Source: Syntrophaceae bacterium (GTDB taxonomy: Bacteria; Desulfobacterota; BSN033; UBA1163). From it: a stretch of DNA of 42,697 nt. Below the pieces are notes generated by a model. That model worked only from the letters and a program-made list of their open reading frames with translations. It was not told the DNA's origin and ran no database searches. This document shows positions 9,775 to 38,892 of the stretch, in pieces (within the stretch, counting starts at the first letter, position 1; each line of letters opens with the position of its first letter). Location of the stretch: contig JACAEV010000066.1 of NCBI GenBank assembly GCA_013388645.1, forward strand, positions 1 to 42,697, given 5' to 3'. A program made the position numbers and the translations under genes.

Positions 9775-9858
9775 CATAGCGCAGAGCGCATGGAGCACAG
9801 AGTCTATATTTCAAAGATCTATCTTATCTTTTTCCCTATGCACTATGCGTTTTTATAA
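9775..9858. repeat. Word-repeat spacer mraZ-rsmH
   Basis: The spacer is built from repeated short words: CATAGCGCA, GAGCGCATG and GAGCACAGAG on the left, and CCTATGCACTATGCG on the right. The right part read in reverse complement is CGCATAGTGCATAGG, similar to the left words, so the two halves can pair. No coding potential is visible. Confidence 0.55.
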
Positions 9859-10749: not shown

Positions 10750-10770
10750 GAAAGTGCAAAGGGAATTTGG

Positions 10771-13085: not shown

Positions 13086-13132
13086 AAAGAGGACCGTATA
13101 GAGCATAGAGCATAACGCTCAACGTTTATAAA
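13086..13132. repeat. Word-repeat spacer ftsI-murE
   Basis: The 47-nt spacer contains TAGAGCATAGAGCATAACGC and then TCAACG. GAGCATA is repeated in tandem, and the same word style occurs in the mraZ-rsmH spacer. A CAACGT-type spacer also occurs at 35829-35865. Confidence 0.45.
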
Positions 13133-16110: not shown

Positions 16111-17187
16111 GTGTTCTATCATCTTCTTTATCCTCTTCACGAACTGTTTTCTTTCTTCAACGTCTTTCGTTACATCACCTTTAGAACGATCTGTTCTATT
16201 TTGACAGCCCTGCTCATCAGTTTTGTCATTGGACCTTGGTTGATTGAGAAATTGAGAGCGTTTCAGATTCAACAGGTGGTAAGGGAAGATGTCCCCTCTC
16301 GACATCTATCTAAGAATGGAACCCCCACGATGGGTGGAAGTCTTATCCTGGCTGCCATTCTCATCCCGACCCTCTTCTGGTCTGACCTCGCCAACCCCTA
16401 TATTTGGATCGTTATTTTAACCACCCTTGCCTTTGGAGCACTTGGATTTTTAGATGACTATAAAAAAATGAGGGATAAAAAAGGCATTGGGATTCGGGCT
16501 CGATACAAATTTCCCATTCAAGTGATCCTCGGTCTTGTGATCAGCTTTTTCCTGTTCACCACCATTGACCACGATTCCAGGTTGATCTTTCCTTTCTTCA
16601 AAAAAGTGATGCCCGATCTTGGGGATTGGTACATCCTCTTTGGGATGTTTGTGATCGTCGGAGCAGCGAATGCGGTCAACCTGACAGATGGCTTGGATGG
16701 GTTGGCGATCGGACCGGTGCTCATCGCAAGTGGGACATTTATGCTTTTCTGTTACCTTGCAGGGAACTTCAAATTCGCCACCTATCTCCAGATCCCTTTT
16801 GTTAAAGGGAGTGGAGAACTGACCGTTTTGTGTGGGGCCATGGTCGGAAGCGGGTTGGGATTTCTTTGGTTCAATACCTATCCGGCTCAAGTCTTTATGG
16901 GAGATGTGGGTTCACTTTCCTTAGGGGCAGCCTTAGGAACCATCGCGGTGATTACCAAACAAGAGTTCCTTTTGGTCATCGTGGGGGGAATTTTTGTCAT
17001 CGAGGCACTTTCCGTCATCATTCAAGTGATTTCTTATCAATTGAGAAAGAAACGGGTATTTCGAATGGCACCCATTCACCATCATTTTGAATTGAAAGGT
17101 TGGGCAGAACCAAAGATCATTGTTCGATTTTGGATCATTGGGATCATTCTCGGGCTGGTTGCGATCAGTACGTTGAAGTTGAGGTAA
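16111..17187 (+). CDS. mraY: Phospho-MurNAc-pentapeptide translocase MraY
   Basis: MraY transfers phospho-MurNAc-pentapeptide to undecaprenyl phosphate, forming lipid I at the inner membrane. The 358-residue protein has about ten membrane segments. The catalytic acidic residues are visible as FLDDYKK (Asp115, Asp116) and [10 protein letters not shown] (Asn190, Asp193, Asp196), and the conserved [11 protein letters not shown] is near the C-terminus. The TPTMGG loop follows the first cytoplasmic segment. The start is a GTG that directly abuts the murF stop, with GAAGGAGG just upstream. Confidence 0.97.
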
Positions 17188-17259
17188 CTGAGAGTTAAGA
17201 GTTTAGAGTTATGAGTTGAGAATTGCGGACACGAGACACAGACACGGAAAACGGTATTG
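17188..17259. repeat. Word-repeat spacer mraY-murD
   Basis: The spacer reads as repeated GAGTT words (GAGAGTTAAGAGTTTAGAGT, then TATGAGTTGAGAATT), followed by repeated GACACG/AGACACAGACACGG. It interrupts an otherwise tightly packed part of the cluster. No gene or clear promoter is visible. Confidence 0.55.
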
Positions 17260-18603
17260 ATGGATCTCCACGGTAAAAGGGTATTGGTGGTAGGGCTGGC
17301 CCGAACAGGAATCGCGACAGCAAAATTCCTAAAAACAAAGGGTTCCCTTGTGACCACGACCGAGGTGCAGCCGAAAGAGGAGATGAAAGAGGCGGACAAG
17401 GAATTAAAGGGGATGGGAATCTCCATGGAATGGGGTGGCCATCAGGTGGAGACTTTTCTCAAGCAGGATATGATTGTGGTGAGTCCGGGTGTTGATTTGA
17501 GTATCGCCCCCATCCAAAAAGCCATCCAAAAGGGTGTTCAGGTGATCAGTGAGATCGAACTGGCTTACCCCTTTATCCGAGCCCCGATCATTGGTGTGAC
17601 CGGAACCAATGGGAAGACCACCACGACACTGCTCATCGGTGAGATGCTGAAAGAGGATGGGAAAAAAGTGGGGGTCGGTGGAAATGTCGGCGAGCCGCTT
17701 ATTCTTTTTACAAATGGGAAAGAGCGATGGGATGTATTGGTGGTAGAGATTTCCAGCTTCCAGTTAGAGGCCATCCATGAATTTCGCCCTAGCATTTCTG
17801 TCTTGCTTAATATAACGGAAGATCATTTGGATCGGTATCCTAGTTACTTGGATTACATCACCGCCAAAATGAGGATTTTTAGAAATCAAAATTCAGGAGA
17901 TTGGGCTATCCTCAACCGAGATGACCCGATAGTGATGCAGGGTCAAGGAAAGGTGAAGGCAAAAAAAATTTTGTTCAGCTTGAAGGAAGCCCTCGGTGAG
18001 GGTGCTTTTTCAGATGGGCGAACCATCTCTCTGAGGCTTGGAGGTGAGAAGGAGGAGTATCCCTTAGCCCAGGCGCCGTTAAAAGGAGTTCATAATGTTG
18101 AGAACATGATGGCTGCCCTCACGGCGGCGAGGGTTTTCGGCTGCTCGAAAAAGGCGGTTCAGGAGGTCCTCAATCGGTTTGAGGGGCTTGAACATCGTCT
18201 TGAATTTGTTCGGGAGATTGAAGGGGTTCGTTTTTACAATGACTCTAAAGGAACCAATGTCGGTTCGGTGGTTAAATCTCTCCAAAGTTTTTCAGAGCCC
18301 GTGATCTTGATCGCAGGGGGAAAAGATAAAAACGGGGATTTAACCCCTCTGAAAGCATTGGTCAGGGAAAGAGTGAAATGCCTGATCCTGATGGGTGAAG
18401 CCAAAGAGAGAATGGCCCATGAATTGGAGGGACAAACCGATACGGTGATGGCCAAGACCCTGGAAGAGGCGGTGCGCTTGGCCCATCAAAAGGCACGGGG
18501 AGGAGATATCGTCCTCCTCTCACCTGCCTGTTCGAGTTTCGATATGTTCAAGGACTACAAAGAAAGGGGGAGGATATTTAAAGAGGCGGTCCACCGCATT
18601 TGA
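17260..18603 (+). CDS. murD: UDP-MurNAc-L-alanine-D-glutamate ligase MurD
   Basis: MurD adds D-Glu to UDP-MurNAc-L-Ala in the cytoplasm. The 447-residue product starts with MDLHGKRVLVVGLARTGIAT, the Rossmann-like UDP-binding loop. The ATP loop GTNGKTTTT lies at about 115-123, ISSFQLE near 167, and the C-terminal FYNDSKGTN and LSPACSSFDMF motifs are present. I place the start at the ATG at 17260 rather than the TTG one codon upstream. Its stop overlaps a possible TTG start of ftsW. Confidence 0.95.
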   Translation: MDLHGKRVLVVGLARTGIATAKFLKTKGSLVTTTEVQPKEEMKEADKELKGMGISMEWGGHQVETFLKQDMIVVSPGVDLSIAPIQKAIQKGVQVISEIELAYPFIRAPIIGVTGTNGKTTTTLLIGEMLKEDGKKVGVGGNVGEPLILFTNGKERWDVLVVEISSFQLEAIHEFRPSISVLLNITEDHLDRYPSYLDYITAKMRIFRNQNSGDWAILNRDDPIVMQGQGKVKAKKILFSLKEALGEGAFSDGRTISLRLGGEKEEYPLAQAPLKGVHNVENMMAALTAARVFGCSKKAVQEVLNRFEGLEHRLEFVREIEGVRFYNDSKGTNVGSVVKSLQSFSEPVILIAGGKDKNGDLTPLKALVRERVKCLILMGEAKERMAHELEGQTDTVMAKTLEEAVRLAHQKARGGDIVLLSPACSSFDMFKDYKERGRIFKEAVHRI

Positions 18604-18620
18604 GGGATGGAACTTTAGAG

Positions 18621-19721
18621 ATGAAAGGTAAAAGAAGACTCGATCTTATTTTGTTAATGGTCACGCTTGCATTAGTGGGGATCGGGGTGATTATGGTTTA
18701 CAGCACCAGTGCCATTATCGCTGGCGATCGCTTTGGAGACCCTTACTACTTTCTCAAAAGACAGGTCCTGTACGCAGCGATCGGTTTCTTTCTGATGATC
18801 CTGATGATGTTTTTTCCCTATGAGATGCTGAAACGATTCGCCTATCCCATCCTGATTCTGTCCATTCTGCTTTTAATTGCGGTGTTGATCCCAGGAATTG
18901 GACATCGAGCAGGAGGGGCGATGCGTTGGTTGAAGATCCAATCCTTTTCGTTTCAGCCCTCCGAATTTGCAAAGTTGGGGCTGGTGGTGTTCCTCGCCTA
19001 CTTTTTGGCTAAGAAAGAGGAGAAGATCCGGAGCTTTTCTTTTGGATTTCTTCCTACGGTTCTCCTATCCGGTTTCGTCATTTTTCTGGTGATGAAGGAA
19101 CCCGATTTCGGGGCGGCTTTTTTTCTCGTCGCGATGGTCTTTCTTCTTCTCTTCCTCAGCGGCGCCAGAGTGATCTATATCGTCGGTGCTTTTTTGATAG
19201 CTATTCCTGCCGCCTATATTCTTTTGATGAACGTGGCCTATCGCTATAAAAGGCTCATGAGCTTCATCCGACCTTGGGAAGACCCCAATGGCACGAGCTT
19301 CCAAATCATCCAATCTTTCCTCTCCTTTGGCTCCGGAGGTTTTTTCGGATTGGGATTGGGAGAAGGACGGCAGAAGCTCTTCTTCCTCCCTGCCCCCCAT
19401 ACCGACTTCATCTTTTCTGTCATCGGTGAAGAGTTAGGTTTGGTGGGGGCGATGATCATCGTTCTCCTTTTCTTTATCTTAACCCTCAGGGGGATTCAGA
19501 TCGGACTCTCCCTGGGAGACAGATTTAGCGCCTATTTAGCATTAGGGATCACTTTGATGATCTCCCTTCAGGCGGTGATCAATATGGGAGTGGTTTTGGG
19601 ACTCCTTCCCACAAAAGGGTTGACACTGCCTTTTGTCAGTTATGGAGGGACATCACTGGTGGCTAACCTGATTGGAGTGGGAATACTTCTTCACCTTTCC
19701 ACCCATGTGGAACGAAGATGA
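18621..19721 (+). CDS. ftsW: Septal peptidoglycan polymerase FtsW
   Basis: FtsW is the SEDS-family glycosyltransferase that polymerises lipid II at the septum with FtsI. The 366-residue product has about ten membrane helices. It has the N-terminal VYSTSAI segment, the FQPSEFAKLGLVVFLAYF signature near residues 110-127 and the C-terminal KGLTLPFVSYGGTSLVAN. The ATG at 18621 gives an N-terminus (MKGKRRLDLILL) like those of related FtsW proteins. A TTG at 18600 overlapping the murD stop would add seven residues and is the alternative. The last 4 nt overlap the murG start (ATGA). Confidence 0.95.
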   Translation: MKGKRRLDLILLMVTLALVGIGVIMVYSTSAIIAGDRFGDPYYFLKRQVLYAAIGFFLMILMMFFPYEMLKRFAYPILILSILLLIAVLIPGIGHRAGGAMRWLKIQSFSFQPSEFAKLGLVVFLAYFLAKKEEKIRSFSFGFLPTVLLSGFVIFLVMKEPDFGAAFFLVAMVFLLLFLSGARVIYIVGAFLIAIPAAYILLMNVAYRYKRLMSFIRPWEDPNGTSFQIIQSFLSFGSGGFFGLGLGEGRQKLFFLPAPHTDFIFSVIGEELGLVGAMIIVLLFFILTLRGIQIGLSLGDRFSAYLALGITLMISLQAVINMGVVLGLLPTKGLTLPFVSYGGTSLVANLIGVGILLHLSTHVERR

Positions 19722-20806
19722 GATGTGTGATTGCGGGAGGTGGGACGGGAGGTCACCTTTTCCCGGGCATGGCGATCGCTGAGGCGTTTATTGGAAGAGA
19801 GGAAGGGAATGAAGTTCTGTTTATCGGGACGGAGAGAGGGATCGAAGCCAGCGTTTTATCAGGGGGAAAATTTCCACTGCGGATGATTCAAGCTAAACCG
19901 ATTAAAGGAAAATCTTTTGTGAGTCAATTAAAAGCGATTTGGAGTCTCCCAGGGGCCATCGCTGAGTCCTTTTCGATCTTGAAAGGGTTTCAACCCCATC
20001 TCGTTTTAGGAGTAGGGGGATATGCCTCTGGACCTACTCTGGTCGCGGCTTTTTTTCTTAGAATCAAAAGGGCCATCCATGAGCAGAACGTCGTGCCAGG
20101 GATGACCAATCGCATTCTAAAATGGTTCAGTCAACAGATCTTCGTCTCCTTTGAAGAGGCGAAGATCTATTTCCCAGAAAGAAAGACCGTTGTGACGGGG
20201 AATCCGATCAGAAAAGAATTTTTTGTCTCTCTTAAAGAAGCGAAAGAAAGCATGAAAAGAAAGGATCGATTTACCCTCCTCATCTTTGGGGGGAGCGCAG
20301 GGGCCCATCGTATCAATCAGGCGATGATGGAAGCCCTGAACCATCTTCAGGAGATCAAGTCCCGCTTCACCTTCATTCATCAAACCGGGAAGGACGATCT
20401 CGATTTTGTCTCTCGAGGTTATCAAGAGAGAGGATTCGATGCGTTGGTCAGACCCTTTTTTAACGACATGGGCACTTATTACCGGATCTCCGATTTGGTC
20501 ATCTGCCGATCTGGAGCGAGCACCGTGGCGGAGTTGGCCCTCTGCGGTAAGGCAGCGCTGCTCATTCCTTATCCTTATGCCGCCCATCGTCATCAATGGA
20601 TCAATGCAAAAAAATTGTCTGATCTTGGGGCAGCCAAAATGATTCTGGATGAAGAGGTCCATGGTCAATCGCTCGCCCAAATCATTCTTCATCTTTACGC
20701 TCACCCCGAGGAACGTGCCAGGATGGAAAAGGCGATTCAGCAGTTAGCGAAACCGAGAGCAGCCGAAGAGATTGTCGACCATTGTTATGCTTTATGTAGA
20801 AAATAG
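19718..20806 (+). CDS. murG: UDP-GlcNAc:lipid I N-acetylglucosaminyltransferase MurG
   Basis: MurG adds GlcNAc to lipid I on the inner face of the membrane, giving lipid II. The 362-residue GT28 enzyme has the N-terminal glycine-rich loop GGGTGGHLFPG near residues 7-17, the conserved GVGGYASGP and HEQNVVPG segments, a second glycine loop FGGSAGA near 190, and CRSGASTVAEL followed by PYPYAAHRHQ for UDP-GlcNAc binding. The start overlaps ftsW (ATGA), so translation is probably coupled. Confidence 0.97.
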   Translation: MRCVIAGGGTGGHLFPGMAIAEAFIGREEGNEVLFIGTERGIEASVLSGGKFPLRMIQAKPIKGKSFVSQLKAIWSLPGAIAESFSILKGFQPHLVLGVGGYASGPTLVAAFFLRIKRAIHEQNVVPGMTNRILKWFSQQIFVSFEEAKIYFPERKTVVTGNPIRKEFFVSLKEAKESMKRKDRFTLLIFGGSAGAHRINQAMMEALNHLQEIKSRFTFIHQTGKDDLDFVSRGYQERGFDALVRPFFNDMGTYYRISDLVICRSGASTVAELALCGKAALLIPYPYAAHRHQWINAKKLSDLGAAKMILDEEVHGQSLAQIILHLYAHPEERARMEKAIQQLAKPRAAEEIVDHCYALCRK

Positions 20807-20948
20807 GGTTTTTGTCCGATGGCAAGGGTCACGATGCCCGTTTCGTAATTTGGTGACGTCATTCGTTTAAAAATTTGACGTAACCCTCCGACCCTAAACC
20901 AAAGGGGCTTCGTAGCCGTAACCTTTGAGCTTGACTTCTTAGGGATCG
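20807..20948. repeat. Palindromic spacer murG-murC
   Basis: The 142-nt spacer holds an inverted repeat, GGTGACGTCA (20852-20861) and TGACGTAACC (20876-20885), with 9 of 10 pairs. GTAACCCTCC at 20880-20889 is found again at 39382-39391. Repeated ACCCT words continue to 20900. No gene is visible. Confidence 0.45.
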
Positions 20949-22322
20949 ATGTATCGAAGAGGAAAGATTCATCATATTCACTTTGTTGGGATCGGTGGTA
21001 TTGGCATGAGCGGGATTGCCGAGGTGTTACTCAATTTGGGTTATATCATCAGTGGTTCTGATACTAAGGAAACAGAGGTTACCCGGAGGCTTCGTTCTTT
21101 GGGCTGTGACATTGCCTATGGTCATCGGAGAGAAAACCTGAAGGAAGCAGACGTCGTCGTCGTGTCCTCGGCCATTCGCCCAGGTAACCCTGAAGTGGAA
21201 GTCGCTGAGGAAAGGTTCATTCCTGTCATCCCGCGAGCGGAGATGTTAGCAGAGTTGATGCGAATGAAAATTGGAATTGCGATTGCAGGAACCCACGGGA
21301 AAACGACCACCACCTCTCTCATTGCTTCTGTCTTGGCAGCAGGAGGGCTCGATCCAACGGTGGTGATTGGTGGGAGGCTGAACAGCCTTGGCAGTAACGC
21401 CAGACTCGGACAAGGTGACTTTTTAGTTGCCGAGGCAGATGAAAGTGACGGTTCCTTTTTGAAACTAATGCCCACTGTTGCCGTGGTGACCAACATTGAT
21501 CCCGAACATCTGGATTATTATAAAGGGATCGATGAGATCAAGGAGGCCTTCCTCTGTTTTTTAAACAAAATTCCTTTTTTCGGATTGGCTGTCCTCTGTC
21601 TGGATCATCCCAATATTCAGAGCCTCCTTCCGAGGTTAAAAAAGCGATTTACCACCTATGGATTGACGACCCAGGCAGATTTTCAAGCAAAAGAGATCGT
21701 TTTTGAGGGGCTTTCTACCTCTTTTGATGTTGTCCATCGACGGCAGGAAATAGGAAGGCTAAGTCTTCGAATGCCCGGGCAACACAACGTCTATAATGCC
21801 TTAGCGACCCTGGCCACGGCCTTTGAATTGGATATTCCCTTTGAGGTGGTTCAGGAGACGCTCCGCGATTTTGGCGGAATTCAGAGGCGATTTCAAATCA
21901 AGGGAGAAAAGAAAGGAATTCTCATCGTGGACGATTACGGCCATCATCCCGTTGAGATTATGGCAACGCTCAAGGCGGCGCGAACCGGCTGGGGAAGAAG
22001 GATCATCGCTATATTTCAGCCCCACCGTTACACCAGGACTCAGGCCCTGTTTAAAGATTTTCTCACCGCCTTTTATGAGGCAGATGTTCTTATTCTGACG
22101 AATATCTATTCGGCAGGGGAAGACCCCATCGAAGGCGTCGTGGCAGAGGCCCTTTTTGAAGGGCTCCGAGAATATGGCCATAAGGATGTCACCTATTTGG
22201 GGGAGAAGAAAGAGATTGTCGAACATCTTCTCCGGATTATCGCACCGGGGGATTTAGTGATCACCTTGGGTGCAGGAGATATCTGGCAGGTGTCTGAGGA
22301 GTTGGTGAGCAGGCTGGATTAA
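20949..22322 (+). CDS. murC: UDP-MurNAc-L-alanine ligase MurC
   Basis: MurC adds L-Ala, the first stem residue, to UDP-MurNAc. The 457-residue protein begins with the UDP-binding [15 protein letters not shown] near residues 11-25 and SGSDTKETE, has the ATP loop GTHGKTTTT at 114-122, the EADESDGSF segment near 160, and a C-terminal DYGHHPVEI plus QPHRYTRT, all typical of MurC. The ATG at 20949 follows a GGGATC context with a weak ribosome binding site. It restarts the cluster after a 142-nt spacer. Confidence 0.96.
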
Positions 22323-22394
22323 GAAAATTTAAGATTTCAGATTTATGATTTTAGATTTTAAATCTGCAATCTGAAATCTACCATCTGCAATCAA
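22323..22394. repeat. Long palindromic spacer murC-murB
   Basis: The spacer is nearly all repeats of the word AGATTT and its complement AAATCT. AGATTTCAGATT (22332-22343) is the exact reverse complement of AATCTGAAATCT (22368-22379), and AGATTT/AAATCT (22353-22358, 22360-22365) face each other near the centre. The transcript can fold into a long hairpin. There is no terminal U-run of the classical type. Confidence 0.65.
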
Positions 22395-23300
22395 ATGGAA
22401 CGGGATTATAGAAAATGGGCGTCACGTATCATCAAGGGGAAGGTTCTTTTCGATGCACCGATGAGGCAATTCACTTCGATCAAGGTGGGTGGGCCTGCAG
22501 AGTGCCTCCTTTTCCCAAAGGATATGAATGAACTGAAAAAGGTGATTCGGTTTGCCGGGAGAAAAAAAATTCCCTGTTTGATTTTAGGGAGGGGAACCAA
22601 TCTGATTGTAAGAGACAAAGGAGTACGCGGATGGGTCATCAATCTCACTCAAGGAATGAAAAAGATCTCACTGAATGGAGAGATCATCGAGGCGGAGGCA
22701 GGCCTCCCTCTTCAACAGATGGTGCAATTTTCCATTCGGAAGGGCCTGACAGGGTTAGAACCCTTTGTCGGCATCCCTGGTACCATAGGAGGGGGATTAG
22801 CGATGAATGCTGGAGCATGGGGTGCCGAATTGAAAGATGTCCTTCTCTCTATGACCTGTATGAAGGAAGGTGGAGAAATTGTAGAGAGGCCCCGTTCGAG
22901 GCTTCAATTCTCTTATCGAGGATTAGTCCTCCCCCCTTCATGGATTATTCTTAAGGGTCGATTTCTCCTAAAAAAAGGGAGAAGAGAAGAGATCTTGAAA
23001 AAAGTAAGCTCTTATTCCGATATGAGGAAAAGAAAACAACCCTTGGACTATCCCAGTGCTGGATCCATTTTCAAAAATCCAAAGGAAGGACCCGCCGGAA
23101 AGTGGATCGAGGAAGCGGGACTAAAAGGGTTTCGGGTAGGCCAGGCCATGGTCTCCCCTCGCCATGCCAATTTCATTGTGAATCTGGGGAAAGCTAAGGC
23201 TGAAGAGGTCATTCATTTAATGGAGCTCATTGAGAGAAAGATCTACGAAGAGAAGGGTATCTCCCTTGAGAGGGAGGTAAGGGTGGTCGGTGAGCTGTAA
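22395..23300 (+). CDS. murB: UDP-N-acetylenolpyruvoylglucosamine reductase MurB
   Basis: MurB reduces UDP-GlcNAc-enolpyruvate to UDP-MurNAc with FAD and NADPH. The 301-residue protein has the FAD-binding region with TSIKVGGPAE (about 27-36), LILGRGTNLIV (63-73), and PGTIGGGLAMNAGAWG (128-143). FSYRG near 172-176 and the proton-donor Ser224 in AGSIFKNP match the active site, and a Glu near the end (LEREVRVVG) completes it. The ATG at 22395 directly follows the palindromic spacer, so a hairpin could affect its translation. Confidence 0.96.
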   Translation: MERDYRKWASRIIKGKVLFDAPMRQFTSIKVGGPAECLLFPKDMNELKKVIRFAGRKKIPCLILGRGTNLIVRDKGVRGWVINLTQGMKKISLNGEIIEAEAGLPLQQMVQFSIRKGLTGLEPFVGIPGTIGGGLAMNAGAWGAELKDVLLSMTCMKEGGEIVERPRSRLQFSYRGLVLPPSWIILKGRFLLKKGRREEILKKVSSYSDMRKRKQPLDYPSAGSIFKNPKEGPAGKWIEEAGLKGFRVGQAMVSPRHANFIVNLGKAKAEEVIHLMELIERKIYEEKGISLEREVRVVGEL

Positions 23301-23403
23301 TGCGGTTTTGTTGAACGGCCCTATACCCAATTGGGTTCAGGATTTGCGGTACATGGAAGGCAAATAGCAGGATAGGGACCGAAGGATTTTGTTTTGGGAT
23401 GAA

Positions 23404-24348
23404 ATGAAGAATTCGTTGCTAAAGAAAAAAAAGATTGGCGTCATGATGGGGGGACTCTCTCGGGAGAGAGAGATTTCTCTGAAAACAGGAAAGGCGGTCC
23501 TGAAGGCCTTACATGAAAAGGGATATCCTGCCATCGCCATCGATGTCGGAGAAAATATTGCAGAAAAATTAGTGAAGGAAAAGATCGATTGTGCTTTTTT
23601 GGCTCTTCATGGAAGATTCGGAGAGGATGGGACCATTCAGGGAATGCTGGAGTTAATGAGGGTTCCTTATACCGGATCTGGCGTTCTGGCGAGCGCATTG
23701 GCCATGCATAAAATCATGGCCAAGAAGTTTTTCCTTTACGAAAAGATTCCAACCCCGCGTTTCGAGGTTTTCCATCGGGAGGACATCCAAAAGGGTCCAC
23801 AGAAAATATTTCCATTACCATTCCCTTTGATCGTCAAACCGGCGAGGGAGGGGTCCACGATTGGTGTTTCGATTGTCCAGAAGGAGGAGGAATGGATCCC
23901 TGCCTTAAATAAAGCAGTGGAATACGATGACGAGATATTGATTGAAGAATTTATGAAAGGAAAAGAGATCACCGTGGGAATATTGGAAGATATTCCTCTT
24001 CCTATCATTGAGATCGTTCCAAAGAGTGGCTTTTATGATTACCATTCTAAATATACCAAGGGGGAAACCCAATACATCCTCCCTGCAAGAATTTCAAGAG
24101 AAAAGTATCTCTATGCCCAGGAGATCAGCCTCAAGGCCTTTCAAACGTTGGGTTGTACGGGTGTGGCCAGAGTCGATTTAATGACGGATGAAAATGAAAA
24201 TCCTTTTGTCATCGATGTCAATACGATGCCTGGGATGACGGAAACCAGTCTATTACCCAAGGCAGCCAGTTATGCGGGTATCCCTTTTGAAGATTTGGTG
24301 GAACGGATTCTATTGGGAGCGTCATTGAAGATAGAAAATGGAAAGTAA
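23404..24348 (+). CDS. ddl: D-alanine-D-alanine ligase
   Basis: Ddl makes the D-Ala-D-Ala dipeptide used by MurF. The 314-residue ATP-grasp enzyme has the N-terminal KIGVMMGGLSREREISL near residues 10-26, ALHGRFGEDGTIQG, a central GSTIGVS loop, and C-terminal RVDLMTDENENPFVIDVNTMPGMT, where the metal-binding acids and Asn are visible. I chose the ATG at 23404, because the upstream TTG at 23389 has GAAGGA only 2 nt away; the TTG start would add five residues. It lies 103 nt after murB. Confidence 0.95.
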   Translation: MKNSLLKKKKIGVMMGGLSREREISLKTGKAVLKALHEKGYPAIAIDVGENIAEKLVKEKIDCAFLALHGRFGEDGTIQGMLELMRVPYTGSGVLASALAMHKIMAKKFFLYEKIPTPRFEVFHREDIQKGPQKIFPLPFPLIVKPAREGSTIGVSIVQKEEEWIPALNKAVEYDDEILIEEFMKGKEITVGILEDIPLPIIEIVPKSGFYDYHSKYTKGETQYILPARISREKYLYAQEISLKAFQTLGCTGVARVDLMTDENENPFVIDVNTMPGMTETSLLPKAASYAGIPFEDLVERILLGASLKIENGK

Positions 24349-24417
24349 TATTGAGTAACTTGAGTTTCTTGAGCTCTTTGGGTTAGCTCGATACACCTGC
24401 CAGACCCAAAAAACTCG
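24349..24417. repeat. Word-repeat spacer ddl-ftsQ
   Basis: The left part repeats TTGAG (TTGAGTAACTTGAGTTTCTT, then GAGCTC). The right part contains ACCTGCCAGACC (24395-24406), which occurs identically at 39424-39435 in another spacer 15 kb away. Complementary CTCGAT/ACTCGAT words lie around it. Confidence 0.5.
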
Positions 24418-25263
24418 ATGAAACCGAGAAGAGGAGCAATGGAAAAGGACCTCCAGGTACGAGAGGGAAAATTTCTAAGACCGAAAGTGAGGAGAGAGGA
24501 AAAAGAGGGAAGGAAATTTCAAGGAATTGTAAGGAAAACGATTCGAGTGGCCTTTCGAGTTCTTCTTCTTTCTTTTTTTCTGTTTACGGGTCATCAGATT
24601 TATGGGCATCTCCTGGGAGATTCCCATTTTAGAGTGCGGGAGGTAGAGGTGGAGGGAAGTCGAAAGTTGTCCAGAGAGACCCTCCTCTCCCTCACGGTAA
24701 TGGAGGGGATGCCCAACCTTTTCTCGGTTGACCTCAAAAAAGTGGTTAAACGGTTAGAGTCTCATCCTTGGATTGAGCAGGTGAGTGTCAGGAAGGTTTT
24801 TCCCAATAAGATATTGATTCAGGTGGAAGAAAGAAAGCCGATGGCCATCATTCAATTGGGAGAGCTTTATTATATCGATACTCAGGGAGAGATCTTTTCT
24901 CCAGTGGGGGATAGAGATGAATATAACTATCCTTACCTCACCGGGTTAACTCGGCCCTTTTTGGAAAAGGAGCCGGTTGAGGCAAAACGTATGATCATGA
25001 AGGCCTTGGAGCTATTGAAGATCGTGGAGCAAGAAAAGCGCTCTCCTCTCAAGGAGCTCTCCGAAATCCATATGGAAAGAACTTTTGGGATACAATGCGT
25101 CACCAAGGCAGAAGGGGTGGAGGTGAGAATGGGATGGGACCACTTTGGAGAAAAGTTGGAAAGGTTGTCTCTTATTTGGTCGGACCTTCGGAAGAGAGGG
25201 TTCTCTGCCGTCTTCATTGACTGTAGCGATTTGCAAAGAATGGTGGTCAGAAAGATTCCTTGA
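24418..25263 (+). CDS. ftsQ: Cell division protein FtsQ
   Basis: FtsQ is a bitopic inner-membrane protein that scaffolds FtsL/FtsB and later divisome proteins. The 281-residue product has a long basic cytoplasmic tail, one membrane segment near residues 44-62 (VAFRVLLLSFFLFTG), and a periplasmic POTRA domain starting near FRVREVEVEGSRKLS (about 73-87), with the conserved HPWIEQVSVRKVFPNKILI. The FtsQ/DivIB C-terminal part includes YYIDTQGEIF. An in-frame ATG seven codons later is a possible alternative start. It precedes ftsA by 29 nt, as in most clusters. Confidence 0.93.
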   Translation: MKPRRGAMEKDLQVREGKFLRPKVRREEKEGRKFQGIVRKTIRVAFRVLLLSFFLFTGHQIYGHLLGDSHFRVREVEVEGSRKLSRETLLSLTVMEGMPNLFSVDLKKVVKRLESHPWIEQVSVRKVFPNKILIQVEERKPMAIIQLGELYYIDTQGEIFSPVGDRDEYNYPYLTGLTRPFLEKEPVEAKRMIMKALELLKIVEQEKRSPLKELSEIHMERTFGIQCVTKAEGVEVRMGWDHFGEKLERLSLIWSDLRKRGFSAVFIDCSDLQRMVVRKIP

Positions 25264-25292
25264 AGGGACACTTAAAAGGGAGGTGATCATAG

Positions 25293-26519
25293 GTGGGGAA
25301 AAAAGAGTCCTTAGTTGTTGGTTTAGACATTGGGACGACGAAAATTTGTACTGTGGTTGGAGAGATGTCTGATGGAACGGTCAACATCATTGGCCTTGGA
25401 ACGTTCCCTTCGAAGGGATTACGAAAGGGGGTGGTCATCAATATTGACAGCACCGTCCATTCGATCAAAAAAGCGGTTGAAGAAGCAGAGCTGATGGCAG
25501 GATACCACCTCACCTCTGTCTATGCAGGGATCGCAGGAGGCCATATTAAAGGGATCAACAGCCACGGTGTGATTGCCGTGAAGAACAGAGAGATTGGGCC
25601 GAATGATGTCAAACGGGTGATCGACGCGGCAAGTGCCATTGCCATCCCGATGGATCGAGAGGTGATTCACATCATTCCGCAAGAATACATCGTGGACGAT
25701 CAGGACGGGATCAAAGATCCTGTAGGGATGTCAGGGGTGAGATTGGAAGGCAGGGTTCACATCGTCACGGGCGCGATTACCTCTGCGCAGAATATCGTCA
25801 AATGTGCCAACAAGGCCGGGCTGGATGTGGACGACATTGTATTAGAGCAGTTGGGCTCGAGCGAAGCGGTTCTGACTCAAGAAGAAAAAGATTTGGGAGT
25901 GGCTATTATTGACATCGGAGGGGGGACGACAGATTTGGTCATCTTTTCGAACGGATCGATCAAGCATACATCCGTTTTCTCCTTGGCAGGAAGTCACATT
26001 ACGAACGATATTTCGATGGGACTTCGGACGCCTGTTGAGGAAGCAGAGAAGATTAAAATAAAGTACGGATGTGCCCTGACGGCGATGGTTCGAAAAGATG
26101 AGACCATAGAGGTTCCCAGCGTGGGAGGCAGAAAACCCCGCGTCCTATCGAGGCAGACGTTGGCAGAGATCATCGAGCCCAGGGTCGAGGAAATTCTCAC
26201 CTTAGTGCATCATGAATTGGTGCGGACAGGCTTTTCCAATCTGTTAGCTTCCGGAATCGTCCTCACGGGTGGAAGCGCGATTCTCGAAGGGATCCCGGAA
26301 TTGGCGGAACAGGTTTTTAACCTCCCTGTTCGCCGCGGAACCCCTGTGGGGATCGGAGGGTTGGTCGATCTGGTGGCGAGCCCCGTGTATGCGACGGGAG
26401 TGGGCCTCGTTCTTTATGGAAGTCGAAATAAAGGGCAAAGCCGGTTTAAGGTAGGTGAAGGAAATATTTTTAGCAAGGTCACCCATCGAATGAGGGAGTG
26501 GATTGGAGAATTTTTTTAA
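25293..26519 (+). CDS. ftsA: Cell division protein FtsA
   Basis: FtsA is an actin-like ATPase that anchors FtsZ filaments to the membrane. The 408-residue product has LDIGTTKICTVVGE near residues 11-24 (phosphate 1), the inserted 1C domain, DIGGGTTDLVIF near 209-220 (phosphate 2), and LTGGSAILEGI near 326 (adenosine site). The C-terminal VTHRMREWIGEFF is the expected amphipathic membrane-targeting helix. The start is a GTG at 25293. AAAAGGGAGGTGATC at 25274-25287 is a nearly full complement of the 16S rRNA 3' end, placed 9 nt upstream, which supports this start and suggests strong initiation. Confidence 0.96.
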   Translation: MGKKESLVVGLDIGTTKICTVVGEMSDGTVNIIGLGTFPSKGLRKGVVINIDSTVHSIKKAVEEAELMAGYHLTSVYAGIAGGHIKGINSHGVIAVKNREIGPNDVKRVIDAASAIAIPMDREVIHIIPQEYIVDDQDGIKDPVGMSGVRLEGRVHIVTGAITSAQNIVKCANKAGLDVDDIVLEQLGSSEAVLTQEEKDLGVAIIDIGGGTTDLVIFSNGSIKHTSVFSLAGSHITNDISMGLRTPVEEAEKIKIKYGCALTAMVRKDETIEVPSVGGRKPRVLSRQTLAEIIEPRVEEILTLVHHELVRTGFSNLLASGIVLTGGSAILEGIPELAEQVFNLPVRRGTPVGIGGLVDLVASPVYATGVGLVLYGSRNKGQSRFKVGEGNIFSKVTHRMREWIGEFF

Positions 26520-26640
26520 GTCGGGAAGGATTCATGGAGTCAAGGGTTCAAGGGGCCAAGTGAAACGCATAAGAAAATGAGAAAAAATCATTAACAAACA
26601 CTTGAACCCATGAACCCTCGAATCTTTGAACACTTTAACT
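26520..26640. repeat. Palindromic word-repeat spacer ftsA-ftsZ
   Basis: The left part reads GGAGTCAAGGGTTCAAGGGG and the right part CACTTGAACCCATGAACCCT. GGGTTCAAG (26544-26552) pairs perfectly with CTTGAACCC (26601-26609), and CCAAGTG can pair with CACTTG. A further AATCTTTGAACACTTTAAC repeat continues up to the ftsZ ribosome binding site. A hairpin here could adjust the FtsA:FtsZ ratio. Confidence 0.55.
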
Positions 26641-26655
26641 AAAAAGGAGGGGAAA

Positions 26656-27861
26656 ATGATCGAATTTGACGAGAACAAAAATTTGGCCGCCAAGGTTAAG
26701 ATCATCGGAATTGGAGGAGGAGGAAACAATGCCTTGAATACCATGATTTCCTATCAACTCTCTGGAGTTGCGTTCATCGCTGCCAATACCGATGCCCAGG
26801 CACTGGCGGCAAATATGGCTCCTATAAAATTGCAGTTAGGTGAAAATTTAACCAAGGGATTAGGAGCTGGAGCCAATCCGGAGATAGGCAGAAAAGCTGC
26901 CCTGGAGGATGTGGAGAAGATTCGGGAAGCCTTAAGAGGGTCTGACATGGTCTTCATCACAGCTGGGTTAGGGGGTGGGACCGGTACCGGAGGTGGGCCG
27001 GTTATAGCGGAGGTGGCACGTGAAATGGGGGCGCTCACTGTGGCGATTGTAACCAAACCTTTCCACTTCGAAGGAAAGAAGAGGATGAAACAGGCTGAAG
27101 AGGGATTGGAAAATTTGAGGATGACGGCGGATGCGCTGATTACCATTCCAAATCAACGCCTTCTCAGTATCAGTGGCAAGACCATGACACTGCTCGAGGC
27201 ATTTAAAAAAGCAGACGAGGTTCTCTACCACGCAGCCAAAGGGATCTCAGACATCATCGTCGGTCATGGGATCATCAACTTGGACTTTGCTGATGTCCGA
27301 ACCGTTATGTCCGAAACGGGAATGGCTTTGATGGGGACGGGAATTGCTTCTGGTGAAAATCGATCCATTGAAGCGGCCCAAAAAGCGATCTCCAGTCCTC
27401 TCCTTGAAGATATCACGATTGAGGGAGCACGGGGACTTCTCATCAATATCACGGGAGGCGAGAATATGACCCTCAGCGAGATCAACGAGGCGACGACGCT
27501 CATCCAGAAAGAGGCCCACGAGGAGGCGAATGTGATCTGGGGAATGGTGGTCGATAAGGCGATGAGGGATGAAATTCGAGTGACCGTGATTGCAACGGGT
27601 TTTGGAAAGAAAGAGGAAAAGAAAACCCATTCATTTAAAAAAGTGGCACCCATTTCCTTTGGCCTGAGGGAACAAAATAAGGATCTTTCCCACCTTGCCT
27701 TTACCACCAAAGAAAATAACAGGGATATCCCTACCTTTATGAGGAGAGTGAAAGTGAGCGAGCGGTTTGACGAATTAAAATTGGAGTCCCCATCGGAGTT
27801 TTCCATCGAGGATGAAGATCGTTTTGACATCCCCACTTTTTTAAGAAAACAGGCCGACTGA
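26656..27861 (+). CDS. ftsZ: Cell division GTPase FtsZ with two C-terminal peptides
   Basis: FtsZ polymerises into the Z ring. The 401-residue product has the tubulin signature GGGTGTG at 106-112 (followed by GGPV rather than the usual AAPV), NTDAQAL near 44-50, and the T7-loop region NLDFADVRTVM. The C-terminal conserved peptide that binds FtsA occurs twice: RDIPTFMRR at 356-364 and FDIPTFLRKQ at 390-399, separated by an acidic linker. Most FtsZ proteins have one copy. The ATG at 26656 is chosen because AAGGAGGGG lies directly upstream; a TTG at 26626 would place the ribosome binding site inside the gene. It is the last gene of the dcw cluster. Confidence 0.97.
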   Translation: MIEFDENKNLAAKVKIIGIGGGGNNALNTMISYQLSGVAFIAANTDAQALAANMAPIKLQLGENLTKGLGAGANPEIGRKAALEDVEKIREALRGSDMVFITAGLGGGTGTGGGPVIAEVAREMGALTVAIVTKPFHFEGKKRMKQAEEGLENLRMTADALITIPNQRLLSISGKTMTLLEAFKKADEVLYHAAKGISDIIVGHGIINLDFADVRTVMSETGMALMGTGIASGENRSIEAAQKAISSPLLEDITIEGARGLLINITGGENMTLSEINEATTLIQKEAHEEANVIWGMVVDKAMRDEIRVTVIATGFGKKEEKKTHSFKKVAPISFGLREQNKDLSHLAFTTKENNRDIPTFMRRVKVSERFDELKLESPSEFSIEDEDRFDIPTFLRKQAD

Positions 27862-33875: not shown

Positions 33876-34667
33876 TTAATTATCCCTTTTATTCGCCATT
33901 TCCAATCCCTGCTTAACATATCTTAAGACACTAACCATTGTAGGCCCAGCCTGTGCATGAATAATGAGGTCTGCCATATGATCACAGGAAGTCGGATCGC
34001 GATTGATGATCACCAATTTTGCTCCATTTCTCTTTGCCACTAAAGGCATCGAGGCAGCGGGTTGGACAACCAAAGAGGATCCGATCACAATGAAAAGGTC
34101 ACTAAGGGAGGATCGGTGGTAAGCCTCTTGAGTCTCTTTTTCTGGCATGGATTGACCAAATGATATGGTAGCAGGTTTGAGCAATCCACCACAAGATTCG
34201 CAAAGCGGAGCCCTCTCCCCTTTTTTAATCCGTTCTTGAATTTCATCGCGGTCATACTTCTGATGACAGCTCAAGCAGGAGACATAGAGGGCTGTTCCAT
34301 GGAGCTGAATCACCTTTTCTTCAGAGTTTCCCGCCTTGAGGTGAAGGCCATCAATGTTTTGGGTAATAACGCAGTCCAATTTACCTAATTTCTCCAGTTC
34401 GCTAATGGCCAAATGAGCGGGATTAGGTTCCGCTTTTTTAATGGGACCGTACATTTCAGTGGCCATCTGCCAATATTTTTCCCTTGAGATTTCACTGGCC
34501 AGGAAATTCTGAAAATAGAAATCCTCAGGATTATATTTATCCCAAACGCCACCAGGGCTACGGAAGTCTGGAATTCCCGATTCGGTGCTGAGCCCTGCGC
34601 CAGTGAAAACAATGATCCTTTTAGAAGTAGCGATCCATTGGGCAATCTGTTTCAGTTGTTCTTCCAT
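33876..34667 (-). CDS. cobB: NAD-dependent protein deacylase (sirtuin)
   Basis: Sirtuins remove acyl groups from protein lysines using NAD+. The 263-residue protein has the NAD-binding GAGLSTESGIPDFRS at about 23-37, TQNIDGLH near 102-109, catalytic His123 in QLHG, a Cys4 zinc site (C131, C134, C156, C159), and IVIGSSLVVQPAASMP near 191-206. There are no membrane or signal segments. The usual class III Ala-Tyr-Arg triad for desuccinylation is not obvious after the first motif (YFQNFLASEIS follows), so general deacetylase activity is more likely. The gene diverges from a radical SAM gene. The symbol cobB is by homology. Confidence 0.93.
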   Translation of the reverse strand: MEEQLKQIAQWIATSKRIIVFTGAGLSTESGIPDFRSPGGVWDKYNPEDFYFQNFLASEISREKYWQMATEMYGPIKKAEPNPAHLAISELEKLGKLDCVITQNIDGLHLKAGNSEEKVIQLHGTALYVSCLSCHQKYDRDEIQERIKKGERAPLCESCGGLLKPATISFGQSMPEKETQEAYHRSSLSDLFIVIGSSLVVQPAASMPLVAKRNGAKLVIINRDPTSCDHMADLIIHAQAGPTMVSVLRYVKQGLEMANKRDN

Positions 34668-34763
34668 GTTTTTCTCCCATTTTTATCCTTTTCCCCAATC
34701 GCCTCATCCCCCACCACCCGATCAAGCTTTTTCTAACTGTCTATATCACACGGTTCATATGAC

Positions 34764-34793
34764 TTGCAAGCAGGAGACCCCCTATGATAAAAT
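34764..34793 (+). promoter_or_regulatory. Promoter of the radical SAM gene, implying a leaderless mRNA
   Basis: TTGCAA (34764-34769) is followed after 18 nt by TAAAAT (34788-34793). The ATG at 34800 lies 7 nt beyond the -10, which is where transcription should start. No ribosome binding site is visible before the ATG. The arrangement resembles that of ligA. Confidence 0.45.
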
Positions 34794-34799
34794 TTTATA

Positions 34800-35828
34800 A
34801 TGAAATGTAATTTAATTAAGCAGGGATATCCACAGGGAAGCTGCTATGTTGAATGCGACCAGGGGAAGGTTGTTGCCTGTGAAGCCACTCTTAAGAAGAC
34901 CGACCATGGCCTCCTCAGATTGATCTCTGCAGTTCATCTCTCCCGACCAGAAAATTATCTCTCCATTTATCAATCGGGTTGTAATTTCTCCTGCCGGAAA
35001 TGTCATTCCTGGAGTTTTACAAAGATTGCCAAAGGCGATTGGTGGTCTTCTGCAGAGATATTAAAGGCGTGCAAGGAATATGAAAAAGAGGTGACCATTC
35101 GGGAACCCCGAGAAAGAGCCACTGCCTTTCATGCCTCTGACTCCTGCCGCGGGTGTGGAGCTTGTGTGATGTCTGGGAAGAGGTCACCCCTCTGTCCCAA
35201 AGTGATTCAGAAAAAGGAGATGGTTCTAAGTCCCCAAGGTTGGGGACCTGCCCGCAATATTGTTGCCTTTACGGGAGGAGATTTGACCTGCTGCCCCGAA
35301 TTCTATATCGAATGTGCCCGCTTGATCAAGGCAGACACGGAACTGTGGGTGTTAATCGAGACCAATGGTTATGGTCTCACCCCTCAGCATCTTGATGAAT
35401 TAAAGGAGGCCGGGGTGGACTCCTTTTGGCTTGACATGAAGGCCTTTGATGGGACCGACCATAAATGGTTGACCGGCTGTTTCAATCGAAACATCCTCAA
35501 GCTTCCTGAAGAAATCATCAAAAGGGGTTTTGTCCTGGAAATCCTCTCCCTCTATATCCCAAACCTTGTCGAGACGCCCCAGTTAAAAAAAATTGCTCAA
35601 CTGATTTTTGAAATCGATCCCGAAATTCCATTTACTATCTTAGCTTTTTTCCCCGAATATCAAATGAAGCGATATAGAAGCCCTAAGGTTTCTGAGATGA
35701 TCGAAGCCTATACGGAGGTAAAGGCTATTGGTCTGAGGAATGTGAGGTTAGGGAATACCGGGGTTTTTGCTTCATCGGAGCAGGATTATGATCTCCTTAA
35801 AAAGAAAGTGGGGACGAGGAATTATTAG
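34800..35828 (+). CDS. Radical SAM protein, activating-enzyme-like, with extra cysteine motif
   Basis: The 342-residue protein resembles pyruvate formate-lyase activating enzyme-type radical SAM proteins. The [4Fe-4S] motif is CNFSCRKC at residues 61-68. A second cysteine set, C116, C119, C122 and C132 (CRGCGACV...LCPK), looks like a ferredoxin-type cluster site, as in glycyl-radical activating enzymes. FTGGDLTCCPEF near 157-168 is the GGE-like SAM-binding segment, followed by LIETNGYGL and LDMKAFD. No glycyl radical enzyme gene is visible next to it. The reaction is unknown. The ATG at 34800 has no ribosome binding site. Confidence 0.85.
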   Translation: MKCNLIKQGYPQGSCYVECDQGKVVACEATLKKTDHGLLRLISAVHLSRPENYLSIYQSGCNFSCRKCHSWSFTKIAKGDWWSSAEILKACKEYEKEVTIREPRERATAFHASDSCRGCGACVMSGKRSPLCPKVIQKKEMVLSPQGWGPARNIVAFTGGDLTCCPEFYIECARLIKADTELWVLIETNGYGLTPQHLDELKEAGVDSFWLDMKAFDGTDHKWLTGCFNRNILKLPEEIIKRGFVLEILSLYIPNLVETPQLKKIAQLIFEIDPEIPFTILAFFPEYQMKRYRSPKVSEMIEAYTEVKAIGLRNVRLGNTGVFASSEQDYDLLKKKVGTRNY

Positions 35829-35883
35829 GACTACAACGTTCAACGTATCCGTGTAGAGTTCAACGATGAAGGAAGGAATGAGA

Positions 35884-37371
35884 ATGAGACGAGTTAAAAA
35901 TTTTATTAATGGAGAATGGGTGGATGCTCGATCTGGTCAATTCTTTCAGTCGATCAATCCTGCTAACAAGACTGAAGTCGTGGGCGTTGTTCCAAAATCA
36001 GGAGGGGAAGACATCGATCGGGCGGTCAAGGCAGCAAGAAAAGCCTATGAAACATGGCGATTGACCCCTGCTCCCCGTCGGGGTGAGATTCTTTTCAGCG
36101 CTGCAGAAATTCTTTTAAAGAATAAAGAGTCCTTAGGAAAACTCGAAACACGGGAGATGGGGAAGATCCTTCCCGAAGCTATGGGTGATGTCCAGGAGGC
36201 CATTGATATGGGTTATTATATGGCTGGAGAGGGAAGGAGGCTCTCTGGAGAGACCGTTCCATCCGAGCTTCCCAATAAGGATATGAAATCGATTCGCGTT
36301 CCATTGGGTGTTTTTGGATTGATCACCCCATGGAATTTTCCCATCGCCATTCCTGCGTGGAAGATCTTTCCAGCCCTCATATGTGGAAATACGATTATTT
36401 TTAAACCCTCCAGTGACACCTCGGTCTGTGCCGCTGCATTTGTGGAAGTATTAGCAGAAGCAGGTTTGCCCAAGGGGGTGTTGAATCTCGTCCATGGAAC
36501 AGGAGGAGAGGTAGGAGAATATTTGGTGAGCCATCCCGCGGTGGATGCCATCTCTTTTACGGGTTCTTTTGATACTGGGAAACATCTTGAAGCGATTTGT
36601 GGAGCCCTCCATCGGATGATTGTGACTGAGATGGGCGGGAAGAATGCCATCATCGTGATGGACGATGCGAAACTTGATTTGGCCGTTGAAGGAGCGATCT
36701 GGGGCGGATTTGGAACGACTGGACAGCGATGTACAGCCGCCAGTCGGATCGTCGTCCACAAGAAAATCTATAAAAAATTCATTGAACGATTTAAAGCTGC
36801 TGGGTCTCGGCTCAGAATAGGAGATGGCCTTCGAAAAGAGACAGATATGGGGCCTGTAATTAATGAGTCCCAGTTCAATAAAATACTTCAATATATTGAA
36901 ATCGGGAAGAAAGAAGGGGCCAAACTCATTCTCGGAGGAAAGGCCTATCAGAAGGGAAGTTGTTCCAAAGGATATTTTATCGAGCCCACTATTTTCAGTG
37001 AGGTGACTCCTGAGATGCGGATTGCGCAGGAGGAAATTTTCGGGCCGGTCGTTTCAGTGATCAGAGCCAACCACCTTGAAGAGGCCATTCAGATAGTGAA
37101 TCGTTCCCTCTATGGGCTTTCTTCTGCCATTTATACTCAGAATGTCAATTCAACTGCGATCGCAGAAAGGGACCTGGAGACGGGAATTGTTTACATCAAT
37201 GCTTCCACGATCGGAGCAGAAATTCATCTTCCCTTTGGGGGGGTCAAACATTCTGGATATGGAAGGAAAGAGGCAGGGGGTCGAGGGGGGGCTCTGGATA
37301 CGTATAGCCGTTGGAAGGTGATTTACAGAGATTTCAGCGGGCGACTTCAGAAGGCACAGATTGACAAATAA
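35884..37371 (+). CDS. NAD(P)-dependent aldehyde dehydrogenase
   Basis: The 495-residue product is a full-length ALDH-superfamily enzyme that oxidises an aldehyde to a carboxylate. Catalytic residues are visible: Asn151 (PWNF), Lys174 (KPSSD), Glu249 (TEMGGK) and Cys283 (GQRCTAAS), with FTGS near 225-228 for cofactor binding. The middle region (EMGKILPEAMGDVQEAIDMG) resembles ALDH7 and ketoglutarate-semialdehyde dehydrogenases, but the substrate cannot be fixed. I place the start at the ATG at 35884, because GAAGGA lies 7 nt before it; two earlier in-frame ATGs (35866, 35878) would put this site inside the gene. It lies downstream of the radical SAM gene after a short CAACG-word spacer. Confidence 0.93.
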   Translation: MRRVKNFINGEWVDARSGQFFQSINPANKTEVVGVVPKSGGEDIDRAVKAARKAYETWRLTPAPRRGEILFSAAEILLKNKESLGKLETREMGKILPEAMGDVQEAIDMGYYMAGEGRRLSGETVPSELPNKDMKSIRVPLGVFGLITPWNFPIAIPAWKIFPALICGNTIIFKPSSDTSVCAAAFVEVLAEAGLPKGVLNLVHGTGGEVGEYLVSHPAVDAISFTGSFDTGKHLEAICGALHRMIVTEMGGKNAIIVMDDAKLDLAVEGAIWGGFGTTGQRCTAASRIVVHKKIYKKFIERFKAAGSRLRIGDGLRKETDMGPVINESQFNKILQYIEIGKKEGAKLILGGKAYQKGSCSKGYFIEPTIFSEVTPEMRIAQEEIFGPVVSVIRANHLEEAIQIVNRSLYGLSSAIYTQNVNSTAIAERDLETGIVYINASTIGAEIHLPFGGVKHSGYGRKEAGGRGGALDTYSRWKVIYRDFSGRLQKAQIDK

Positions 37372-37524
37372 AGGCATGGGGAGAGGGTATCGGGGGAAAC
37401 TGGAATAATGGGTTAGAACCTAACATTTCGATATTCCATTCTTCCCTCATTCCAATAAATGGTTGATTCTTCCTTGGAGTTGTGGTAATGAAGAACCAGG
37501 TTGAAAATGACGAAGGGAGGGCAC
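37372..37524. repeat. GGAAT-word spacer before the REC-LpxC gene
   Basis: TGGAATAATGGG (37401-37412) faces CCCTCATTCCA (37444-37454), whose complement is TGGAATGAGGG. GTTAG/CTAAC (37412-37416, 37420-37424) forms a small hairpin between them. This is again a spacer made from one repeated word in both orientations. Confidence 0.4.
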
Positions 37525-38892
37525 ATGGAGAGAAAAGTCCTCATCGTGGACGATGAGGAGAGAGTCGTCCAATCGATTGCGGGGGTTCTGGAGGACGAAG
37601 GGTTTCGAGTTGCCAAGGCTAAAAGTGGCGAAGAGGCGATCAAGGTTTTCCAGCAGGAGGAGCCCGATATCACCCTTCTCGATATCTGGATGCCCGGGAT
37701 GGATGGCATCGAGGTATTAAAACGGCTCAAATGGATTTCTCCAGACTGTCAGGTGATTATGATCTCCGGCCATGCGACGATCTCAACCGCCATGACCGCT
37801 GTCAAATTGGGCGCTTTTGACTTCATCGAAAAACCTCTTTCTCTGGATGTCCTTCTGATGACCATTCGTCGCGCCCTCGATCAGCAAAAGGAGTTTCTGA
37901 CAATCCAGCGATCTGAAGAAATGGTGAGCGAGGATCCTTTCCAAGGGAAGAATATTTTTTCAAAAGGGATTGCCGAGGAAGTCACTGGGCCCCCCATTGC
38001 TAATCTTCGGGAAGCCATCTCGTTAACCAGGGAGTCTTCAAAGAGAAAAGGGACCTCTTTATTTCCTCAGCGCACCCTTAAGCAAAGCATGGTCCTTTAC
38101 GGAACAGGACTCCATTCTGGAAAGAAGACAGGCCTTCTTTTCCAGCCTTTACCTCCACACAGCGGAATTCTTTTCGGGAACATCTCTTCCGATGAGTTTG
38201 TTCCTGCCCATCTCGACTATGTCCAAACGACGGATTTTGCCACCTCGCTTAAAAAGGGAAGGGCAATTGCCAAGACTGTTGAGCATCTCATGGCGGTGTT
38301 GCATGCCTATCGGATCACCAACCTGATGGTGAAAATGATTGAAGAGATTCCCATCATGGATGGTTCCGCTGTTGAATTTTGTAAGATTGTGGAAGAGGCA
38401 GGGGTGGAGGACCAAGAAGAGAGGGTGGATGAATTGATCATTGATCGAAAGTTGGAGGTCGTCCAACATCATAAATCTCTGACCATTGAACCCGCAGAAG
38501 TCTTCTCCGTTCATTACTTTTTAAGTTACCCGCCCCCTATCGGGGAGCAGACTTTTGATTTCACATTAGAGAACGCGGAAGCCTTTAGGGATCAGGTTGC
38601 TCCAGCGAGAACATTTGGTTTTGTTAGGGATATCGAGATGCTTGAACGTATGGGGATGGGAGGAGGAGGCCGCCTCCATAATTTTATCCTCCTTGACGAT
38701 GAGAAGATCGTCAATACCGAACTTCGATTCTCCGATGAGTTTGTCCGACACAAGATTCTTGATTTGATCGGTGATTTCTACCTCCTCAATCGTCCGGTCC
38801 GAGGAAAAGTCACTGCTCGATTGACTGGCCATACAGAAAATATTGCTCTCATGAAAAAGATTCAGGAAGTGCAAAGAGAAAAAGAACGATGA
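37525..38892 (+). CDS. lpxC: Response-regulator receiver domain fused to LpxC
   Basis: LpxC removes the acetyl group from UDP-3-O-acyl-GlcNAc, the committed step of lipid A synthesis, using zinc. Here the 455-residue protein begins with a complete receiver domain (residues 1-125: acidic pair Asp9/Asp10, phospho-acceptor Asp53 in LLDIWMPG, Lys103 in EKPLS). A linker (about 126-180) leads to a complete LpxC (about 182-455, starting QRTLKQSM). LpxC zinc ligands are His254 (EHLMA), His409 and Asp413 (RHKILDLIGD); His436 (TGHTEN) is the catalytic base region; IPIMDGSA is intact. Spacings match E. coli LpxC (H238, D242, H265). The ATG at 37525 follows AAGGGAGGG. No histidine kinase gene is nearby. 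It could couple LPS synthesis to a phosphorelay. Confidence 0.95.
   Translation: MERKVLIVDDEERVVQSIAGVLEDEGFRVAKAKSGEEAIKVFQQEEPDITLLDIWMPGMDGIEVLKRLKWISPDCQVIMISGHATISTAMTAVKLGAFDFIEKPLSLDVLLMTIRRALDQQKEFLTIQRSEEMVSEDPFQGKNIFSKGIAEEVTGPPIANLREAISLTRESSKRKGTSLFPQRTLKQSMVLYGTGLHSGKKTGLLFQPLPPHSGILFGNISSDEFVPAHLDYVQTTDFATSLKKGRAIAKTVEHLMAVLHAYRITNLMVKMIEEIPIMDGSAVEFCKIVEEAGVEDQEERVDELIIDRKLEVVQHHKSLTIEPAEVFSVHYFLSYPPPIGEQTFDFTLENAEAFRDQVAPARTFGFVRDIEMLERMGMGGGGRLHNFILLDDEKIVNTELRFSDEFVRHKILDLIGDFYLLNRPVRGKVTARLTGHTENIALMKKIQEVQREKER

Follow-up and report, generated by a model that had tools for sequence, protein, structure and literature searches.

The window (the whole stretch of DNA analysed, 42,697 nucleotides of contig JACAEV010000066.1 in the Syntrophaceae bacterium assembly GCA_013388645.1) encodes a protein in which an NtrX-type receiver domain is joined to LpxC, a drug target and the enzyme on which the flux into lipid A depends. 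We estimate a probability of roughly two in three that this protein is an NtrX regulator with LpxC as its output, NtrY phosphorylating Asp53 of the receiver and thereby altering LpxC activity. The features, in coordinates of the window, are:

37525..38892, + strand: rr-lpxC fusion gene, 455 aa, ATG start, TGA stop, single open frame
37516..37520, + strand: GGAGG, Shine-Dalgarno-like, 4 nt 5' of the ATG, read from the sequence
37537..37866, + strand: receiver domain, NtrX type, residues 5-114 (PF00072; NCBIfam NF051870 as best model; tree; identities)
37681..37683, + strand: codon of the phospho-acceptor Asp53, an Asp kept in 89/89 fusion proteins
37888..38067, + strand: variable linker, residues 122-181, starting within the extended helix alpha5 (low conservation; AlphaFold)
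38068..38865, + strand: LpxC deacetylase domain, residues 182-447 (PF03331; all catalytic residues present; fold match)

Pfam recognised a Response_reg domain (PF00072; residues 5-114, E=4.8e-32) and an LpxC domain (PF03331; residues 182-447, E=2.3e-81, 273.7 bits against a cut-off of 27), and the NCBIfam model TIGR00325 scored the latter at 235 bits (cut-off 187). The receiver hallmarks Asp9, Asp10, Asp53, Ser81 and Lys103 are all present, and the E. coli LpxC residues Glu78, His79, Thr191, His238, Lys239, Asp242, Asp246 and His265 correspond to E253, H254, T363, H409, K410, D413, D417 and H436. The preliminary description, which was made from the letters alone and proposed an intact receiver and an intact LpxC in one frame, is thus confirmed by the domain models and the conserved residues. 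An AlphaFold model built on a 111-row alignment reached a pLDDT of 89.6 and a pTM of 0.84 (a 13-row alignment gave a poor model, pLDDT 57); it shows a long alpha5 helix at residues 107-134, pLDDT below 50 at 140-157, and an LpxC part that superposes on solved LpxC structures at about 1.4-2.3 A for most of those from P. aeruginosa, Aquifex and E. coli. The domain is complete like other LpxC proteins (PF03331, TIGR00325), with all zinc ligands and the same fold, but the fused forms differ from these in occupying a branch of their own and in carrying an N-terminal receiver; fused-specific changes in LpxC include G203, K270 and C286. The protein ends about eight residues beyond the LpxC domain, with the charged tail IQEVQREKER.

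The host is an uncultured deltaproteobacterium, and its genome is a MAG of 3.95 Mb in 250 contigs. The preliminary description had proposed a check for another lpxC; none was found in this 95%-complete MAG, and LpxK is encoded. With LpxK and no other LpxC in the genome, lipid A is probably made through the fusion protein.

A fusion-profile search across 395 genomes sampled from the phylum revealed the fusion in 87 genomes (about one fifth) and in 60 of 245 genera. The matched loci fetched for inspection all consisted of receiver plus LpxC, and 84 of the 87 fused genomes gave one LpxC match only. In the window's family, the fusion is present in an open frame in 14/14 other genomes with an LpxC found, and the sister family f2 has the same receiver-LpxC architecture, also with an open frame; across the window's class (23 genomes), f1 and f2 are fused wherever an LpxC was found, and the LpxC of f3 is standalone. 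A frame error between the domains, named at the outset as one of three findings that could overturn the proposal, is excluded along with other assembly artefacts, because the identical open frame recurs in many independent genomes. In an alignment of 89 fusion proteins, the acidic pair, the phospho-Asp, Lys103 and all listed LpxC catalytic residues are invariant, and position 81 is Ser or Thr. By mean majority fraction in the fusion alignment, the receiver (0.62) and LpxC (0.65) are conserved to a similar degree, unlike the linker (0.28), which varies in length (24-63 aa) as well as in sequence.

Several loci stood apart in this survey. Three proteins of 1000-1400 aa (L150, L166, L179) were considered as kinase-receiver-LpxC hybrids and rejected as chance read-through into upstream sequence; at L150 and L166 that upstream sequence contains an NtrY-type kinase gene of its own, in another frame. 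The single-contig genome G017 contains two receiver-LpxC fusion genes (L201, L202), and the MAG G067 contains both a fusion (L190) and a standalone lpxC-DUF4390-ntrY locus (L272), which may reflect a mixed bin (5% contamination). Six nearly complete genomes of genus g71 in family f42 (G096, G128, G156, G182, G206, G249) had no LpxC match, and loss of lipid A in this genus is possible; another genus of f42 does have LpxC. The fusion was also seen on single MAG contigs labelled Acidobacteria.

In the LpxC tree, fused and standalone sequences were split by one branch with a support of 100, and the same branch was recovered after 28 lower-scoring standalone LpxC sequences had been added. The simplest reading of this topology is that the fusion arose once, long ago.

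The receiver points to the partner from which it came. The best curated NCBIfam model for the window receiver is NF051870 (NtrX), with 125.9 bits over residues 4-122 only; because this model has a cut-off of 600 and, at full length, takes in AAA+ and HTH, the window protein is not classed as NtrX. Identity of the window receiver is 50-62% (mean 55.5%) with NtrX receivers of lpxC-ntrYX operons and only 35-42% with NtrC-like paralogs sampled from the host genome. A receiver tree, based on few columns, placed fused and NtrX receivers together against the paralogs (support 92), and D24, G82 and H83 are common to 93/93 fused and 19/19 NtrX receivers and rare in the paralogs. Among standalone lpxC genes, ntrY lies within 3 kb downstream in 26/41 sampled loci, with ntrX beside ntrY at 19 of them, and the common order is lpxC-DUF4390-ntrY-ntrX, at times followed by smpB. 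Judged from gene order, the ancestral operon is lpxC-DUF4390-ntrY-ntrX and, from profile, identities and tree, the fused receiver is the NtrX receiver of that operon. The window protein thus shares its receiver's origin with NtrX (NF051870), and the NtrY kinase is present, but it has neither the AAA+ nor the Fis-type DNA-binding domain, and its output is an enzyme. The operon itself is seen at L250, L251, L268, L271, L277 and others; DUF4390 sits between lpxC and ntrY, and remains by ntrY once lpxC is gone.

Relatives of 700-770 aa combine a receiver, a sigma-54 type AAA+ domain, an NtrX-like tail and LpxC, and match NtrX (NF051870) across residues 5-440. The GAFTGA loop, the motif for transcriptional activation, is kept in 0/19 checked three-part fusions versus 16/19 standalone NtrX; L151 has kept the AAA+ domain and lost the HTH-like stretch, and the AAA+ domain is missing from most fusion members, the window type having neither AAA+ nor HTH. 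Three architectures survive: receiver-AAA+-HTH-LpxC, receiver-AAA+-LpxC and receiver-LpxC. Because NtrX is a full-length regulator, these forms would be most simply ordered with a full NtrX-LpxC fusion first and shrinkage later. A neutral accident between operon partners, leaving a receiver with no effect on LpxC, could draw on the fact that the genes were already neighbours before they fused, but it is hardly credible beside a single old origin (support 100), a wide spread, and a phospho-site strictly kept even as GAFTGA was lost from the AAA+ domain and that domain disappeared from most members. The three-part proteins, with decayed AAA+, are those at L132-L145, L147, L148, L151 and L153-L155. 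At two of these loci in f58 (L153, L155), the place of NtrY is taken by a gene of about 850 aa, located two genes before the three-part fusion; its product at L153 is a hybrid kinase that carries three receivers. At L297, L302 and L304, a standalone NtrX beside lpxC-ntrY has an altered GAFTGA loop.

At 27/91 fused loci, the gene immediately upstream of the fusion encodes an NtrY-type kinase. In the window's class, fusion and ntrY lie at separate places, and an NtrY ortholog was found in 21/23 genomes at a strict cut-off; by the same cut-off, none was found in G017 (estimated 75% complete), the one genome without it. The host assembly contains the last 111 codons of ntrY (65% identical), the gene being cut off at a contig end, and ntrY is full length in relatives. 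The host ntrY is followed by smpB, and ntrY and the regulator gene are not adjacent, whereas they are adjacent in other families. DUF4390 and smpB are among the ntrY neighbours in the fused families of the class, and neither lpxC nor ntrX stands beside ntrY there. A true ntrX ortholog is present in f3 (83% identity, 815 bits) and was not found in f1/f2, whose best hits (<=450 bits, 44-50%) resemble paralogs of a general kind. As ntrY is kept and no ntrX ortholog was found in the fused members of the class, the fusion would be NtrY's most plausible partner; because the host also encodes many kinases and about 19 further NtrC-like regulators, another kinase could serve. The NtrY-fusion pairing is well supported by genomics, and in the host we infer NtrY as the kinase from gene content.

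Under the proposed mechanism, the membrane kinase NtrY would receive a signal and phosphorylate Asp53 of the fused receiver, the phosphorylated receiver and the long alpha5 helix would change state, and the activity of the attached LpxC would be altered through packing, dimer state, or both, so that control would be post-translational with no gene regulation in between. Since the linker varies in length and sequence, the alignment does not readily suggest a rigid coupling of great precision. The receiver might instead set the amount of LpxC, phosphorylation hiding or exposing the protein to a protease as in adaptor-type receivers. LpxC is classically set by turnover, including proteolysis in E. 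coli (PMC12444477); however, the fusion has no linked protease or adaptor gene and no degron was identified, and the short charged tail makes a C-terminal degron of the E. coli type not evident, so that another handle would be needed, and we regard control of amount as unlikely. Quite improbable, in our view, is a receiver that serves mainly as a docking or localisation module, tethering LpxC to membrane-bound NtrY with phosphorylation of minor importance: NtrX residues are retained in fused receivers where kinase contact is thought to occur, and Ght places LpxC at the inner membrane in Neisseria meningitidis (PMC12444477), but docking alone has no need for Asp53, the acidic pair and Lys103, which are invariant in 89/89 proteins. 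Phospho-control of LpxC, which the preliminary description had put forward, is the best reading; that description did not anticipate the NtrX origin of the receiver, NtrY as the likely kinase, the ancestral operon or the intermediates with decayed AAA+. As to its direction, lowered activity upon phosphorylation is slightly favoured, though as a guess only, because NtrYX represses lpxC in alphaproteobacteria.

This repression is transcriptional and is described in R. sphaeroides and C. crescentus; in the R. sphaeroides mutant the lpxC transcript rises 8.8-fold and LPS about twofold, and no NtrX site lies upstream of lpxC in this species (PMC12444477, PMC7240162). The two-component system and its target are thus shared with the fusion, but control in the alphaproteobacteria acts on transcription, indirectly in R. 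sphaeroides, whereas here the link to the enzyme is covalent. In D. vulgaris the response regulator DVU2934 binds a single target, lpxC, and in S. fumaroxidans lpxC lies directly upstream of the operon of the orthologous regulator (PMC3333781). Given the NtrYX repression of lpxC in R. sphaeroides and C. crescentus, the fusion resembles a rewired NtrYX-lpxC link. We favour, with some reserve, a lineage-wide rewiring in which the envelope-sensing NtrYX system passed from control of lpxC transcription to direct post-translational control of LpxC, intermediates surviving. Intermediates graded in this way would preserve, as nature seldom does, the steps by which a transcription factor became a regulator of an enzyme. 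A sensor kinase could then raise or lower outer-membrane synthesis directly, and it appears wired to LpxC itself in about one fifth of the genomes sampled from the phylum.

Response regulators with enzymatic output are a known class that includes CheB, PleD and RpfG. As in these proteins, the receiver of the fusion would govern an attached enzyme, but their outputs synthesise or degrade signals or act on receptors by modification, whereas that of the fusion is the enzyme that commits the cell to lipid A. By its sequence relationships, the fusion adds to this class an NtrYX-derived member with a clear evolutionary source. LpxC is also part of a fusion protein in Bacteroidota, the bifunctional LpxC-FabZ (NF009667); there the partner is an enzyme at the opposite end, in contrast to the signalling domain of the window protein. 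No paper describing a receiver-LpxC fusion was found in the open-access library searched; a review from 2025 on how lipid A is regulated uses none of the terms "response regulator", "fused" and "fusion" in its main text, and describes no such protein where it treats LpxC in other organisms. The fusion offers a single-protein system for probing the effect of NtrY signals on lipid A synthesis.

Within 33876-37371, upstream of the fusion, the window carries Sir2 and radical SAM genes that relatives such as L204 have retained; in these, the aldehyde dehydrogenase gene (35866-37371) is not found between radical SAM and the fusion. Some 10 kb further upstream than the fusion, at 9331-27861, is a complete-looking division and cell wall cluster, from mraZ to ftsZ; in E. 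coli, lpxC lies close downstream of ftsZ.
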